A stretch of 32,855 bases of DNA from Candidatus Poribacteria bacterium (lineage in GTDB: Bacteria; Poribacteria; WGA-4E; JAJDTR01), in contig JAPPIK010000059.1 of the NCBI GenBank assembly GCA_028820655.1, positions 1-32,855 on the forward strand. The letters are read 5' to 3'. Both the position numbers and the translations under genes were made by a program. A model generated the notes under the pieces. The model did no database searches. It was not told where the DNA came from and worked only from the letters and a program-made list of their open reading frames with translations. The first letter of the stretch is position 1. Each line of letters starts with the position of its first letter. Below are positions 7,801 to 19,271 of this stretch, one piece after another.

Positions 7801-8508
7801 TTAGATTTCGGCGGAACGTGCCGTCAGTTCTTGCAAGCGCGGGGAGAATGTCTCGTAAACTTCACGCTTGATTAGGGGCCAAGCCGTTGGGCCGCGGTAT
7901 AACACTGCCGGCATATAGTATACGTTTGCCAGCATGCGGTGTTGGTCGGTTGTCGTGTTCGCGCCGGACCGGTGCCAAAGTCCGTTGTGGTAGACAAAGG
8001 CAGAACCCTTCTTTCCGGTAACCGGCATTTCCTGCGGATAGCTTTCCCGGCTGGGGCTGCGTTGCGTGAGGTGGCTAAAAGGCACAATTCGCGTGGCGCC
8101 GTTTTCCGGGGTGCTGTCGGTGAGCATCCAGAACACCTGAAGCCCGTTCCAAGGCGGGAAGAGCGAGCTTGGATCCGCCGCCAACGCGCCGCGTGTTGGC
8201 CAATCGGCGTGCAGGCTGCCGGCGGGGGTTCCGGGTTTGCACCATTTTAACGCAGCATTGTTCGCCAAGAAATAGCCTTCTCCGAGCACGGCTTCCGCAA
8301 TCTCAAGAATCAGCGGATGTGTGCACAGTGTCGCCAGTTCCGGAATATCGTTCAATGATCCTTCGAGGCTGATATACGCCGATCCCATGGACTCCATTAT
8401 CGACCGCGCCATGCCGTCGAGACGTTCCGCCTCTTGCGGGTCAAGCAATCCCTCGAAAATACAGTAACCTTCCTCTGCCAGTCTATCCTTAATCTCGTTG
8501 ATATCCAT
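7801..8508 (-). CDS. Phytanoyl-CoA dioxygenase (PhyH) family protein
   Basis: A 235-residue Fe(II)/2-oxoglutarate-dependent oxygenase. The iron ligands are seen as HAD (His100, Asp102) and His179 in LWHRSG; Arg191 is placed to bind 2-oxoglutarate, 12 residues past that His. The N-terminal helix-turn EEGYCIFEGLLDPQEAERL is typical of the PhyH family, and the length is near normal for short bacterial members. The frame continues 19 codons upstream, but I start at 8508, where AGAGGGAAAA precedes ATG and the family N-terminus begins. It is the first gene of the metabolic cluster. A TTGCCA/TATAGT promoter candidate lies about 95 bp upstream. Substrate unknown: such enzymes hydroxylate many small molecules, and phytanoyl-CoA itself is unlikely here. 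Confidence 0.88.
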   Translation of the reverse strand: MDINEIKDRLAEEGYCIFEGLLDPQEAERLDGMARSIMESMGSAYISLEGSLNDIPELATLCTHPLILEIAEAVLGEGYFLANNAALKWCKPGTPAGSLHADWPTRGALAADPSSLFPPWNGLQVFWMLTDSTPENGATRIVPFSHLTQRSPSRESYPQEMPVTGKKGSAFVYHNGLWHRSGANTTTDQHRMLANVYYMPAVLYRGPTAWPLIKREVYETFSPRLQELTARSAEI

Positions 8509-8603
8509 CGTTTTCCCTCTGTACGTGCCTCGAACGCCGATACATTTTTTGGTGAATGTTGACAAGCCTAATACATAAATAATTCGCCTTTCGGGAAGTT
8601 TAC

Positions 8604-8887: not shown

Positions 8888-8980
8888 TTGTAGGGTGCAA
8901 TCAAGTGAGTGAATAACGAACGATCAAGGGAGCGAATAGATCAAGTGGCTAAATAAGGAACGCGATAGAAATCCCATAGA
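8888..8980 (+). repeat. Dispersed repeat family A, copy 3 (long form)
   Basis: The longest readable copy. It opens with TAGGGTGC, then has three sub-repeats starting ATCAAGTGAGTGAATAACGA, ATCAAGGGAGCGAATAG and ATCAAGTGGCTAAATAAGGA, and closes with CGATAGAAATCCCATAGAGA. It is the left arm of a long imperfect inverted repeat with 9313-9433. Confidence 0.75.
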
Positions 8981-9003
8981 GATCTTCTCTAGGTCGTGAT
9001 TCC

Positions 9004-9031
9004 CCGCTCCAGCGGAGCGGCATGTCAATAG
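9004..9031. repeat. Covarying hairpin repeat, copy 1
   Basis: CCGCTCC-AGC-GGAGCGG: a perfect 7-bp stem with loop AGC, followed by CATGTCAATAG. The sister copy at 9053-9080 has the same loop and tail with paired stem changes. Confidence 0.75.
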
Positions 9032-9052
9032 CAGGGAGACGCCTCGATTCTT

Positions 9053-9080
9053 GCACTCCAGCGGAGTGCCATGTCAATAG
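9053..9080. repeat. Covarying hairpin repeat, copy 2
   Basis: GCACTCC-AGC-GGAGTGC with tail CATGTCAATAG, 49 bp after copy 1. Two stem positions differ from copy 1, and both arms change together, so pairing is kept. Confidence 0.75.
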
Positions 9081-9312
9081 ATGTTCTAAAAATAGCTTTG
9101 CCGCCGACTAGTCAGACAGGTGCTGAAGTTGATGATGGAAGGGACAACCGGTCAATCAATCGGACTCATGGAAGTATCTAGGCGGTTTTTGCTCGTTCGA
9201 AGAGATACGACCAAGATCTAGTATGTGAAAATTCGAGATTACACAAGTCTATTATGAGGAAGATGAGTTGAAGACTCATTTTTTCATTTTTGTAATTGGC
9301 CGAAAAACACCT

Positions 9313-9433
9313 GTGGAATCTCTATGGGAGTTCTATCGCACTCACTACCCGTCCGGTTGATCCCTCGCTGTTCACTCGCTCGCTGTTCACTCGGTTGATC
9401 CATCCTTAATCAGTCGGTCGCCCGCACCCTACC
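9313..9433 (-). repeat. Dispersed repeat family A, copy 4 (long form, inverted)
   Basis: Right arm of the inverted repeat. It reads TCTCTATGGGAGTTCTATCG at its inner end and GCACCCTACC at its outer end. It holds a 15-bp-period duplication of TCGCTGTTCACTCG at 9365-9378 and 9380-9393. Confidence 0.7.
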
Positions 9434-9553: not shown

Positions 9554-12019
9554 GTGCGATTCAAATGCATAGTGTTTTTAGCCATCGTCTCGTTAAGTGT
9601 TCCACTGCACGGTGAGGCGCAAGAACCGACGATCCTTGAGTATGGACAGGCAGTATATACGGTTGCATTTTCACCGGTGAATTCTTCGATTATCGCTGCT
9701 GCCGGTAAGGCCAATGATCCTGATGACAACATCATAAAAGTTTGGAATCTTGAGACAAATAAGGCAATAATGCTACATGGACACACCAGTAAAATCAACT
9801 CCGTGGCTTTTTCTCCAAACGAGGAGTTACTTGCCAGCGGAGGCGATGATTGGACCTTCAGATTGTGGGATATTTCACAAAAGCAAAATATCGCTACCTT
9901 TAAGCACATTACAAACCGAGGGCGATCACAAGTCAAGGTCGTAGCATTTTCACCAGATGGGGAACTCCTTGCCACCGCTGGGAGACATGTAAAGTTATGG
10001 CAGGTCAGTAACCAAACCGAGATAGCTACACTTCAACACAACGGGTACGTTTGGGCGTTAGCCTTTTCCCCTGATGGACAACTCCTCGCGGCTGGCGACA
10101 ATACCGGGAGCGTGAAAGTTTGGACTGTTCAGACGAGACAAGTGATTGCGCGGCTAGAAGGCGATACGACCGGAGTATATTCTGTCGCATTTTCACCAGA
10201 TGGCAGAACCCTTGCGAGTGCCGGGTATCAGGGACAGATTAAATTGTGGGCTGTGGCAAATTGGGAACTCCTTGGCACGCTCCAAAATAGCGGAACTGCT
10301 TTTACTGTTGATTTCTCCCTTGATGGGAAAGCACTTGCGAGCACAGGGCACGAAACTATCCGCCTGTGGTCTGCCGAGAGCGGCGAAAAGATTACTTCGC
10401 TGACAGGGCACACCGGCTGGGTCAGGGCTGCCGCCTTTTCACACGACGGAGCCACCCTCGCCAGCGGCGGTGATGATGGGATTGTTCGTGTTCAGAATAT
10501 TGAAACTCATCTCCAGACACTGCAACAACGAAAGATGGTTCGCCTAATCTACTTTCTCCCTCAAGACCGCTTACACCGGGAGGATATAGGCACAAAGCTG
10601 GATATGTTGATAATGGACACACAGCAGTTTTACGCCGAACAGATAAAAAACCACGGATTCGACAGAAAAACTTTTGTGTTTGAAACCGATGTAACTGGAG
10701 CGGCTGTGGTGCATCATGTGAATGGGAAGTTCACCGATCGGCATTATTATAATGACACGCTCGACAAAGTCATGGCAGAAATTGATGAACAGTTTGACGT
10801 GTCAAAAAATCTCTATCTCATAGCTATAGATATTGGCGGCGAGCGCATTGACACGCGATGGTGTGGTCGAGGTGGATTTGAATGGTCCGGGACTGGGAAG
10901 GCAATCATCCCTGCCTCCGGTGATTGTTTTGCCGTTGATACCACTGCACACGAACTCGGGCACGCCTTTGGATTAGAACATGATTTCCGCAACGATGCCT
11001 ATATTATGTCATACGGGAGTGGAGCTCGCCGCCGATTGTCGCACTGTGCCGCCGAATGGTTAGATGCCAGCCGATTTTTCAACGCCAACCAAACCGCTTA
11101 CAACGAGCCAGCCACAATTCAGATGCTTGAACCGCTGGCAATTCCACCGAATGCCATTAGCCTTCGCTTTGAGGTAACCGATACTGATGGGCTCCATCAA
11201 GCTCAATTAATTATTCCGACAATTGCTGGCGACCCGGCCGAAGGTGTTAAATTACACGGTTGTAAAACCTTTAACGGTGAAATGAACCTGATTGAATTTA
11301 TCACAACAGATTTGAATGCGGCCTCCGGTAACGAAGTGAGCCTTCGTGTGATTGATGTGCATGGAAACTTTTCACAGGAAACGTATTTGATCGAGATGGA
11401 TGATGTAGTGCGGGTAGATGTCAACGGCGATGGAATAATTGATGTTGCAGATCTGGTGCTTGTAGCGTCTTTCTACGGTCAATCTAGGGCGCCTGGCACA
11501 ATCTTAAATTCAGATGTTAATGGCGATGGCGTCGTTGATGTGAACGACCTCCTACTGGTTGTCGCCGCGCTGGAGGCCTCGGCAAATGCACCTGCTGCAC
11601 ATTCACAACCATTTGCGGCTAACCTGGAGCGGTGGATTGCCGAAGCAAAGCAACGCGACCTTGGAGATAAAATTTTCCAAAAAGGTATTGCAGTGCTAGA
11701 GCAGCTCCTAGCGAGGGTTCGTCCGACAGAAACAGTGCTGTTGCCCAACTATCCAAATCCGTTCAACCCGGAGACGTGGATACCGTATGAATTGGCGACT
11801 GCCAGCGACGTGCAAATCACGATTTACGATGCGCAGGGCGCAATCGTCCGCCGGCTAGACGTTGGTAAACAACAGGCAGGTTATTTCGGGGACAGAAATC
11901 GTGCCGCGTATTGGGATGGCCGTAACGGATCCGGTGAGCGCGTTGCTAGTGGTCTGTACTTCTACACATTAACCGCCGATGAATTCATCGCCACGGGGAA
12001 AATGTTGATTGGAAAATAG
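9554..12019 (+). CDS. Secreted WD40 / metzincin metalloprotease / dockerin / C-terminal sorting-type protein
   Basis: An 821-residue exported protein with a GTG start; AGAAGG lies 7 bases upstream. Residues 1-22 are a signal peptide. Residues 28-318 hold about seven WD40 blades (repeated VAFSPDG, LASGGDD, VKLW). Residues 330-510 form a metalloprotease domain with HELGHAFGLEH at 466-476, the metzincin zinc motif (His466, His470, His476, catalytic Glu467), and a Met485 turn in IMSYG. Residues 619-672 are a type I dockerin with two calcium loops (DVNGDGIIDVADL and DVNGDGVVDVNDL). Residues 731-821 run from NYPNPFNPETWIPY to YWDGRNGSGERVASGLYFY, a FlgD-Ig/type-IX-sorting-like end module. All catalytic residues are present, so it is probably an active surface or secreted protease whose propeller presents substrates. 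It is the only plus-strand gene. Which secretion route reads the end module is unknown. Confidence 0.9.
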   Translation: MRFKCIVFLAIVSLSVPLHGEAQEPTILEYGQAVYTVAFSPVNSSIIAAAGKANDPDDNIIKVWNLETNKAIMLHGHTSKINSVAFSPNEELLASGGDDWTFRLWDISQKQNIATFKHITNRGRSQVKVVAFSPDGELLATAGRHVKLWQVSNQTEIATLQHNGYVWALAFSPDGQLLAAGDNTGSVKVWTVQTRQVIARLEGDTTGVYSVAFSPDGRTLASAGYQGQIKLWAVANWELLGTLQNSGTAFTVDFSLDGKALASTGHETIRLWSAESGEKITSLTGHTGWVRAAAFSHDGATLASGGDDGIVRVQNIETHLQTLQQRKMVRLIYFLPQDRLHREDIGTKLDMLIMDTQQFYAEQIKNHGFDRKTFVFETDVTGAAVVHHVNGKFTDRHYYNDTLDKVMAEIDEQFDVSKNLYLIAIDIGGERIDTRWCGRGGFEWSGTGKAIIPASGDCFAVDTTAHELGHAFGLEHDFRNDAYIMSYGSGARRRLSHCAAEWLDASRFFNANQTAYNEPATIQMLEPLAIPPNAISLRFEVTDTDGLHQAQLIIPTIAGDPAEGVKLHGCKTFNGEMNLIEFITTDLNAASGNEVSLRVIDVHGNFSQETYLIEMDDVVRVDVNGDGIIDVADLVLVASFYGQSRAPGTILNSDVNGDGVVDVNDLLLVVAALEASANAPAAHSQPFAANLERWIAEAKQRDLGDKIFQKGIAVLEQLLARVRPTETVLLPNYPNPFNPETWIPYELATASDVQITIYDAQGAIVRRLDVGKQQAGYFGDRNRAAYWDGRNGSGERVASGLYFYTLTADEFIATGKMLIGK

Positions 12020-17363: not shown

Positions 17364-19271
17364 TTAATCAATCCGTCTGCGTTGATACAGGAACCACTCC
17401 ACTACACTCAGGACGGCGGCAAGGAAAACGAGGTACACCCAGGGCGGGTATTGCAAGAGCGAGGAACCGACGAGTGTGACCTCCGGGGTCAACAGATCCT
17501 CTACCGAGGCGTCAACGCCGATGTGCGATTCCGAATCGTCCGAGAGGTTGACCGCCCACATCTTTTCGCTATCACCGATTTTCAACGTATAGAAACCGGC
17601 AATTTCTGTGCGATCAAAGAGTACTTCACCCCGCTCGAGGGCGGTTTCCCACGTCTGATCTCCAGGTCCGGTGATTGTAGCGGTAGCAGGGGCGTCCGTC
17701 CCATCGCCGTCGGATTTCCACGTCAACACTTCGCCGGTGTGCAGATGGTATTCCTCAATCCCCGAACTATCTTGAAACCACTGAATCGTGTTGGCAATGA
17801 TAACCGGAAAGGCGATACGCAGCGGGAGGTCGGATTGCAGGATGTCAATAGCCGCAAAGACGATCTTGCGCTTGGGCGTTACATCGACAAACAGCACGGG
17901 GTCTTCAAACGAACGGGCTAACACCGCGGCTGTAGCGGGCGGCTTGACGTGGTACGCCTCGCCGATCTGCACATTCTCCAGATGAACGTGACGCAGGATT
18001 GGATGCGTCCGCTCCCAATCGGTGACAATGGGCGTATCGAGCGGGTCGCCGATTTCCCAACTCGCGACAGCGGGGCTTTTTTTGGGAGGATAGACAATCA
18101 TATAATTCCCATCACCGAGCGTTTGCGGGGCGAATCGATCGAAGATGACTACATTATACCCGGTTGCATTCGCATCATAGTCCTCCGGCCTAGTGACGCT
18201 GAGGCTCAGATTTTCGTCAACGGAGAGCGCTTTTTCGAGGAACGGATTCTCTTCGGTCACAAGCAAAACCGGGATATGCTCGCGTTTGGGTAACGCGGCG
18301 TAGGCAACGTTATCGGTATGCAGCGCATCCGCGACATCCAACACCGCCTTGAGCTGCCCGCCTTCGAAGGTAAAATTGCCGAAGATTTCGGATTTGCTTT
18401 CGCCGGGTGCGAGCGTGTAAGGCCGAACATCAAAGAGGCCTTCGTTGAAATAGAGTTCGACGTTGCACTTCTTCTTCTCTTCCGATGCATTGACAACGGT
18501 TAACAGCGTCTGGTAATCGAACGCATTAACGAGACTCTTTCGTACGCGGAATTGAGTGATGCCGACATTGTCACTTACCGCGCCAACCTGAATCGGATGG
18601 AGCGTAATCTCATCGCCCGAGTCGTGGAGTTGCGTCAGCATTTCTTCGGAAACTGTTTGAAAGTCGCTGAAGATGACAATTTCGGCGCTGGGCTTTGTTC
18701 GGGCAACGGCATGCGCCAAACCGAGTGCTGGTTCAAGATTCGTTCTGATGTCGGTTGGCTGTATGGATTGAATTGCACCTCGAAGCGACTTCCGGTGGTT
18801 GGTGAATGGACTATGGATTGTTGGCTTCGCATGGCAACTTATCACCATCATTTCGTCCATGAAGCGCAGACCTTCTACCATTCGGAGGGCGCGCTGCTTG
18901 GCGGACTCCAACCGCGAGTTTGATGCGGCACGATTAGACTCACGCTCTTCGTCGGAAGACTCCTGGGCATTCATGCTTGCCGAATGGTCGATTATCAAGA
19001 TGATATGCCGGGCGGACTTGGTAATGAATGCGAACTGAGGTCGGGCGATCGCAAGCACCAAGAGTGTCAAAAACAGGAGTTGGAGCAGCAACGACAGCAG
19101 GTGCTTCAGTTTTTGGAACAGCGATGTCGTCTGCTTCTCTTTGAATAGCTGCTCCCAAAACATCAACGTGGAGACCGGTTCGCGACGTCGGCGAAGTTTG
19201 AGAATGTACAGAAGGACGATTGGAGCGGCGAGACCAAACAGAAGAAGAGATGTGGGGGATAGGAAGTTCAT
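17364..19271 (-). CDS. BatA-type VWA membrane protein
   Basis: A 635-residue protein. It begins with the aerotolerance/BatA N-terminal segment: a first membrane helix (about 7-25), then LKLRRRREPVSTLMFWEQLF, and a second helix (57-76) ending LAIARPQF. A von Willebrand A domain follows, with the MIDAS start DHSAS at 95-99 (Asp95, Ser97, Ser99). The middle part is beta-rich and presumably periplasmic. A last helix at about 608-627 ends with the basic anchor YQRRRID. BatA proteins bind partners through the metal site and occur with MoxR and DUF58 proteins, as here, where it is the last gene of the block, 64 bp after DUF58. It could be the membrane receptor of the complex (inference). The ATG at 19271 has only a weak ribosome site. 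Confidence 0.88.
   Translation of the reverse strand: MNFLSPTSLLLFGLAAPIVLLYILKLRRRREPVSTLMFWEQLFKEKQTTSLFQKLKHLLSLLLQLLFLTLLVLAIARPQFAFITKSARHIILIIDHSASMNAQESSDEERESNRAASNSRLESAKQRALRMVEGLRFMDEMMVISCHAKPTIHSPFTNHRKSLRGAIQSIQPTDIRTNLEPALGLAHAVARTKPSAEIVIFSDFQTVSEEMLTQLHDSGDEITLHPIQVGAVSDNVGITQFRVRKSLVNAFDYQTLLTVVNASEEKKKCNVELYFNEGLFDVRPYTLAPGESKSEIFGNFTFEGGQLKAVLDVADALHTDNVAYAALPKREHIPVLLVTEENPFLEKALSVDENLSLSVTRPEDYDANATGYNVVIFDRFAPQTLGDGNYMIVYPPKKSPAVASWEIGDPLDTPIVTDWERTHPILRHVHLENVQIGEAYHVKPPATAAVLARSFEDPVLFVDVTPKRKIVFAAIDILQSDLPLRIAFPVIIANTIQWFQDSSGIEEYHLHTGEVLTWKSDGDGTDAPATATITGPGDQTWETALERGEVLFDRTEIAGFYTLKIGDSEKMWAVNLSDDSESHIGVDASVEDLLTPEVTLVGSSLLQYPPWVYLVFLAAVLSVVEWFLYQRRRID

Follow-up and report, generated by a model that had tools for sequence, protein, structure and literature searches.

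What is a pair of nearly identical hairpins doing between two genes that diverge from each other, at distances of ~440 and ~475 bp? The pair, here termed a doublet, lies in the window, by which we mean the whole analysed stretch of 32,855 nucleotides, contig 48 of a Candidatus Poribacteria genome of 5.88 Mb (completeness 95%). Its two members, HP1 (CCGCTCC-AGC-GGAGCGG) and HP2 (GCACTCC-AGC-GGAGTGC), each consist of a 7-bp stem and an AGC loop, are both followed by the identical tail CATGTCAATAG and start 49 bp from each other (Table 1). The two stems differ in two pairs (C-G to G-C and G-C to A-T), both compensated. A preliminary description made from the letters of the window had reported these twin hairpins with their fixed loop and tail, compensated changes and 49-bp step, all of which is borne out, and had proposed that a folded nucleic acid is under selection, which might be an RNA motif or a REP-like element that a transposase recognises. 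As described below, the doublet is one copy of a short repeat scattered between genes in Poribacteria.

Each of the two hairpins folds better than 200 of 200 shuffles (z ~ -3.5, DNA parameters), and a pair of hairpins of at least 7 bp that share an identical 11-nt tail within 120 bp occurs once in the real window and never in 100 first-order Markov versions. The 10-nt core of the tail, ATGTCAATAG, has one further occurrence in the window, at 17842, where it stands without a hairpin. No ortholog of the window locus was present among the retrieved loci of relatives, and locus L156 has the doublet region alone in common with the window (97 bp, 92.8% identity).

Table 1. Features of the window around the doublet
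Feature	Position	Strand	Remark
PhyH-like gene	7801-8565	minus	one neighbour of the doublet gap
GTAG-type REP remnant, probable	8982-9003	+	by eye; a GTAG-type REP often lies directly 5' of HP1 in this genome
HP1 hairpin	9004-9020	+	stem CCGCTCC, with other loops, also flanks subclass 1.2 gene L241 (same-genus genome)
Tail CATGTCAATAG (general form ANNTNNRTAG)	9021-9031	+	conserved; likely counterpart of the REP foot
Spacer, 21 nt	9032-9052	+	free sequence in units of other genera, 20-22 nt in 37/45
HP2 hairpin	9053-9069	+	most frequent HP2 type in other-genera units, 15/45
HP2 tail CATGTCAATAG	9070-9080	+	conserved part at this place in other genera is NATGT only
WD40 protein gene	9554-12019	plus	other neighbour of the doublet gap

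Copies Between Genes

Genome-wide, the pattern CTCCAGCGGAGNNNCATGTCAATAG with at most three mismatches gave 136 forward and 100 reverse matches, 236 altogether, against 0 and 0 for the reversed control, and a looser pattern with one mismatch was present in 28 of 39 genomes, the window genome included. Sequence records with the repeat number at least 80, mostly from Candidatus Poribacteria among the matches listed. The window's own genome was sampled as 60 stretches (tiles) of 1.11 Mb in total. Exact ATGTCAATAG, searched with no hairpin required, occurs there 104 times, with a stem of at least 6 bp in 81 cases, of 5 bp in 5, of 4 bp in 1 and with none in 17, whereas five altered 10-mers used as control gave 5 matches in the same 1.11 Mb, one of them with a stem of 6. 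By eye, several of the hairpin-less tails resemble hairpins broken by another repeat. Hairpin-tail matches in 20 of the 60 tiles numbered 26 in the real sequence vs 0 in its Markov control. The same 1.11 Mb holds 94 hairpins with a stem of at least 6 and an ATGT-type tail, and although ORFs of at least 150 aa cover 72% of its bases they contain just 8 of the 94, so that the copies avoid genes. The repeat is, in this respect like a REP, a short hairpin in many intergenic copies.

Selection on Stem Pairing

For a test of pairing, copies were picked by their tail and then by their four inner pairs, and the three outer pairs were compared with 1000 redealings of the right arms. The outer pairs alone were tested because the inner pairs of the 26 loci from other genera are preselected, these loci having been found via a CTCC/GGAG pattern. 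In the own genome (104 tails, 53 distinct, 30 with inner pairs) the paired share was 0.911 vs a shuffled mean of 0.671 and maximum of 0.778, and in other genera together with genome G038 (82 tails, 46 distinct, 38 with inner pairs) it was 0.754 vs a mean of 0.445 and maximum of 0.588; the shuffles ignore the relatedness of copies, and these values are therefore not p-values. Changes that preserve pairing occur at several positions: pair 1 appears as T-A, G-C or C-G, pair 3 as A-T or G-C, and pair 5 as T-A, C-G or G-C. Among the copies so picked, both in the own genome and in other genera, unpaired outer positions are thus rarer than in the re-pairing control, and the proposed selection on a folded nucleic acid is supported by this covariation.

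Compensation that keeps stems paired, in sampled copies that lie mostly outside long ORFs, would also be expected if the hairpins were kept for a role at the RNA level, be it as mRNA stabiliser, as terminator or as small RNA. We consider this very improbable, and the RNA motif of the preliminary description found no support here: no Rfam family reached its gathering score in the window (three matches, all far below theirs), the hairpins have no T-run behind them, the window copy stands hundreds of base pairs from neighbours that diverge from it, and the motif flanks one type of transposase gene.

The Doublet as the Repeat Unit

The unit measures ~75 bp and reads HP1 - NATGTnnATAG - ~21 nt of free sequence - HP2 - NATGT, with many copies in other genera taking the form HP1 - NATGTCTATAG - spacer - HP2 - NATGT. 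Its edges were determined on 60 units with a hairpin, taken from G038 and from 26 loci in other genomes, in which conservation drops 3 nt before HP1 and, in units with HP2, stops right after the NATGT of HP2. HP2 is present in 45 of the 60, and the letters of the spacer are free (lengths in Table 1). Same-strand neighbours in the own genome are spaced mostly 49 and 50 bp apart, with 51 bp seen once and 88 bp four times; 16 same-strand ATGT-type neighbours within 120 bp were counted in 1.1 Mb, where no two hairpins within 400 bp form an inward or an outward pair. Orientation was also surveyed in G038, over 400 kb of which part had been picked because of repeats already known there. Of the neighbouring opposite-strand hairpins at most 400 bp apart, 7 pairs face outward and 5 inward; the tails of the inward pairs are separated by 115-118 bp in four cases and by 350 bp in one. 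Same-strand neighbours within 130 bp that both have the full tail amount to two cases. At a contig end of the same-genus genome G001 (C106:24-453), seven hairpin matches follow each other in steps of 51 or ~100 bp; the adjacent subclass 1.2 gene (C106:563-871) has an internal stop.

It might be asked whether the copies are passive passengers of the other repeats in which they are nested (the GTAG REP and adjoining modules), spread by the classical RAYTs of the genome, given that HP1 often directly follows a GTAG REP in the own genome and that two other Y1 genes there are flanked by the same GTAG REP. We hold this to be improbable in view of the sharp ends of the 60 units described above and of six other own Y1 loci (L061-L066) whose searched flanks contain no hairpin tail. 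By eye, some copies in other genera also seem to lie in surroundings without another repeat.

Several other repeats were noticed around these copies. By eye, the left part of the remnant at 8982-9003 has seemingly been replaced by another repeat module. A second repeat, approximately GATCAAGYGAGTGAATAACGAGCGCGATAGARATCCC, flanks the window doublet in inverted copies, at 8897-8985 and, reverse-complemented, at 9318-9420; elsewhere in the genome this type seems, again by eye, to break into REPs and hairpins at much the same places, and it resembles a further small mobile repeat, one end of which is at GATAG. Window positions 9086-9268 form a ~180-bp repeat module with some six to eight further matches in 1.1 Mb, some copies of which stand directly after a doublet tail. 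Beside two other Y1 genes of the own genome, L062 and L063 (G000:C61:117664-117990, 100636-100965), stand members of a canonical GTAG REP family, TGTAGGAGCGAYCTCCNGGTCGCGATTC, whose GTAG foot faces away from the genes. At L090 7604-8469 (+), L071 18474-19439 (+) and L079 12025-12687 (reverse), we saw by eye arrays built of a ~60-bp repeat with terminal inverted repeats, GAGTGTTACTTG/CAAGTAACACTC, in alternation with single hairpins or groups of several.

Doublets Beside Transposase Genes

In a search with PF01797 (HUH/Y1 domain), 37 of 39 genomes had matches, and the own genome had them at 7 places. With a protein of the doublet group as query, 59 of 84 genomes of the phylum matched at E 0.001, weak matches to other Y1 proteins included, and 42 of 84 at E 1e-20 or better (hand tally). 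The genes in question have the signature of TnpA_Y1 subclass 1.2, as discussed in the next section. A strict motif, that is an inward perfect hairpin followed by ATGTNNRTAG with at most one mismatch, lies on any flank of 20 and on both flanks of 15 of the 34 distinct Poribacteria subclass 1.2 loci, vs 1 (a chance-like exception) and 0 of 23 loci with other Y1 genes; in the outward orientation it was found at 3/34 and 0/23, respectively. When the flanks of the 14 strict-motif negatives were read, they held hairpins, mostly doublets, with AGGT, ATCT, ATTT, ATAT or similar in the place of ATGT. The relaxed form ANNTNNRTAG accordingly occurs on any flank of 34/34 and both flanks of 27/34 Poribacteria loci (hand count; 41 and 30 in the 44-row totals), vs 1/22 and 0/22 other Y1 loci, locus L227 falling between cut-offs and into neither set; these counts are not independent because the motif had been loosened on flanks of the same Poribacteria loci (the 14 negatives and 3 positives).

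A test free of letters was therefore run, in which two perfect hairpins of at least 5 bp had to lie 38-62 bp apart and at most 220 bp from the gene. Such doublets are found upstream of 27, downstream of 24 and on both sides of 20 of 32 Poribacteria genes, and in Bacteroidota the corresponding numbers are 19, 17 and 12 of 32, which leaves 12 and 20 loci, respectively, with doublets not on both sides. The other Y1 loci gave 0, 0 and 0 of 16, this set being the 16 of 23 loci with a usable weak match and flanks, and Markov flanks gave 2, 1 and 0 of 320, 0 of 320, and 0 of 160. The letter motif is weak in Bacteroidota, with any inward flank at 15/30 loci, both at 5/30 and outward at 8/30 (30 loci, 29 of them new; the letter-free test was designed afterwards). 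In Flavobacterium rivuli, hairpins with ATGTTTATAG stand on both sides of the gene, and the two records from a plasmid search had flanks with one-sided motif matches only. Among more distant Y1 genes (L284-L301, in records titled as other groups), several lie by eye among repeated hairpins with other tails.

We regard the doublet and its link to the subclass 1.2-type gene as well supported, and the link suggests that this enzyme type spreads the doublets. The REP-like element with a Y1 transposase that had been anticipated thus stands in so far as the motif is inverted beside one class of Y1 genes, in relatives and less often in Bacteroidota, the gene of the own genome being of AGGT type; its unit is a doublet rather than a single hairpin.

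Doublets that border the gene on both sides, as the ends of an insertion sequence do, could themselves be ends of an IS200/IS605-type element, whose dispersed copies would then be internally deleted relics (MITEs) with no REP-like role. In keeping with this are the inward pairs in the partly chosen 400 kb of G038 (5, against 7 outward), one inward AGGT-type pair 200 bp apart in the own genome (C15:188440 and 188640), and the NCBIfam name of the protein, IS200/IS605 family transposase (NF033573). The genes are few and diverse per genome, however, while pattern matches run to tens or hundreds in many genomes, the ATGT-type hairpins of the own genome are arranged directly throughout the 1.1 Mb sampled, and the other Y1 genes, mostly IS200-like, are without doublets, so that we see relic IS ends as a rather unlikely, if serious, explanation.

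The Enzyme Class

The motifs DH[IV]H, WQ and Y---Q--HH occur together in 33/33 Poribacteria proteins and in 23/33 from Bacteroidota, where Y---Q--HH is present in 31/33; the latter motif was found in 0 of 16 IS200-like proteins. Residues H55, H57, Y115 and Q119 are invariant in 11 aligned proteins. Three proteins scored 92-95 bits with PF01797, and an HUH/Y1 domain with intact catalytic residues, as expected of IS200/IS605 transposases, is what their sequences predict. With NCBIfam profiles, NF033573 gave 72-75 bits vs a cut-off of 55, and NF047646 (REP_Tyr_transpos) gave 28-32 bits vs a cut-off of 80 for 3 proteins. Searches with phmmer against solved transposase chains, ISHp608 among them, gave E values of 9e-8 to 1.2e-3, and the best-matching chains are presumably those of ISDra2.

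Judged by the motifs that Quentin et al. (2018; PMC6006769) print for TnpA_Y1 subclass 1.2, the linked enzyme belongs there by its signature, and without the Y---NP of class 2 it is, on this sequence criterion, not a classical RAYT. The RAYT-like Y1 transposase that was to be looked for in the genome hence proved right as to the Y1 link, and the signature is that of a subclass nearer to IS200 than to classical RAYTs. In Table 1 of that paper the REP entry for subclass 1.2 is "no", its genes are described there as generally without typical terminal IS200 structures, and the word "Poribacteria" is absent from the main text of PMC6006769.

Comparison with Known Systems

The doublets have several features of the REP/REPtron systems of TnpA_REP (RAYT), class 2 of Quentin et al. 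(2018), namely many copies of a short hairpin between genes, a conserved single-stranded end, inverted repeats that flank a Y1 gene, and a gene type that pairs with a repeat type. Unlike the REPs of RAYTs, they have no GTAG/GTGG foot; the conserved part, NATGTCAATAG, lies 3' of the hairpin (reverse complement CTATTGACAT), and only its last bases RTAG resemble GTAG. Moreover, the doublet tail ANNTNNRTAG faces the gene, whereas the GTAG foot of the own canonical REPs nearest Y1 genes faces away, the doublet unit is direct, and its enzyme is without Y---NP. The motifs, a length of ~150 aa, few copies per genome and Bacteroidetes hosts agree with subclass 1.2 as portrayed in PMC6006769, from which our loci differ by the hairpin doublet on a flank in most Poribacteria and about half of the tested Bacteroidota loci.

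With IS200/IS605 (subclass 1.1; IS608, ISDra2) the system shares the HUH/Y1 core and hairpins at both ends, but it has two hairpins per end instead of one and a conserved tail in addition; at the other Y1 loci, mostly 1.1-like, doublets number 0/16. REPINs and BIMEs are likewise dispersed as hairpin dimers, and inverted four-hairpin arrangements are seen in G038, yet the basic dimer here is direct, ~50 bp apart and not inverted. A Helitron/IS91-like reading, in which a hairpin lies ~11 nt before an end, was dropped once the Y1 link appeared.

Tail Types and the Enzyme Tree

In a careful tree of the enzyme, AGGT-type loci fall into one clade of 13 rows (support 96/96), which includes one row led by AAGT and one row whose two tails are ATGT and AGGT; a second clade, of 4 rows (96/93), is formed by the ATCT/ATTT loci; with four tail states (ATCT and ATTT merged) the tree requires 5 changes. 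A quick tree of the Poribacteria rows only, with AAGT merged into AGGT and ATCT with ATTT, gave 4 changes of tail type, vs a mean of 14.3 and a minimum of 10 in 300 shuffles. Such agreement is partly expected because flanking repeats are linked to the gene, and it shows joint inheritance, not recognition. Among dispersed copies, the AGGT share has a median of 0.73 in 11 genomes with an AGGT gene vs 0.28 in 14 with an ATGT gene (one-sided Mann-Whitney p 0.006), a comparison that is rough because the AGGT and ATGT patterns overlap when the stem is GCCCC, that ignores relatedness, uses hand-typed counts, and drops G001 and G014 (both types) as well as genomes with untyped gene flanks.

By hand tally within the phylum Poribacteria, one or both of two repeat patterns are matched in 41 of the 42 genomes that have a clear gene, and in 25 of the 42 that do not, because of which the repeats seem to outlive the genes. 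The F. rivuli protein has matches at E 0.001 in 142 of 296 genomes drawn from its phylum, and of eight genomes reached via hairpin matches outside Poribacteria, seven have a protein match, of very unequal strength.

Possible Mobility and the Window's Own Genome

One locus allows presence and absence of the repeat to be compared. The gene pair of locus L057, which in G038 is ~260 bp apart with doublets inside, was recovered in 24 of 29 relatives' loci; the two genes are at most 60 bp apart in 14 of the 24, L350 has another doublet in the same gap, and the other 9 have other DNA there, with an ATCT-tailed hairpin seen by eye in L335. The comparison concerns this single locus in species ~80% identical, and the joint is not exact.

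The own genome contains a single subclass 1.2 gene (C4:202349-202809, minus strand), split over two frames, with AGGT-type hairpin pairs on both sides that carry AGGTGTATAG and not ATGTCAATAG. A first search had found no hairpin tail around seven own-genome Y1 loci; the own subclass 1.2 gene, as it turned out, carries the AGGT tail. AGGT-type pattern matches number 47 in the own genome, and exact AGGTNNRTAG with a stem of 6 was not found in the 1.1 Mb sample, which leaves out the contig of the C4 gene. The ATGTCAATAG family of the window is most like the hairpins of the open gene L241 in the same genus (G001:C83), with stem CCGCTCC and tail ATGTTGATAG; this was also the nearest to an open gene with the window's exact tail, of which none was found. 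In G038, source of the most-studied doublets, no clear subclass 1.2 gene is present in the assembly (best E 8.1e-8). The window family may thus be a fossil in its own genome, or its driving gene may be absent from the assembly; the driver there is presumably lost, broken or unassembled.

A Candidate Substrate for Subclass 1.2 Transposases

Taken together, the doublet is probably a REP-like non-autonomous mobile element that is processed as single-stranded DNA by the subclass 1.2 enzyme. What we observed directly is the unit with its compensated stems, its dispersal, the link to the gene in two phyla, one locus of presence and absence, and a tail type that follows enzyme clades. By analogy with known HUH/Y1 chemistry, which is our guide for binding, cut site, strand used and transposition itself, the transposase would bind the hairpins in single-stranded DNA (e.g., of the lagging strand) and cut near the conserved tail via a 5'-phosphotyrosine link, and the freed strand would be joined elsewhere, whereby doublets would spread between genes. 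We are evenly divided on the broader proposal that subclass 1.2 Y1 transposases, in two phyla or more, represent another type of REP system, whose substrate would be a tandem doublet, its hairpins 20-22 nt apart by the spacer and its 10-nt tail (ANNTNNRTAG in Poribacteria) turned towards the gene, and in which two hairpins would be read per end (perhaps one per dimer subunit) under a rule unlike the GTAG foot of RAYTs or the guides of IS608.

The literature on REP and RAYT, among the matches listed, holds no link between REPs and subclass 1.2 in the portions of PMC6006769, PMC3733652 and PMC8266576 that were covered (subscription papers, preprints and supplements lie outside this statement), and a literature search with the tail strings returned no match that by its title concerns bacterial repeats. 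Subclass 1.2 had previously been tabled, in PMC6006769 as far as covered here, as REP-less and without a clear substrate. Should the link prove correct, a candidate substrate would lie right beside many subclass 1.2 genes, which would make binding and cleavage directly testable, and the tail types ATGT, AGGT and ATCT/ATTT would offer natural specificity pairs for how the enzyme reads DNA, while the spacing of the doublet suggests a substrate of two hairpins. Part of the repeated intergenic DNA of Poribacteria would, on the same condition, be accounted for.
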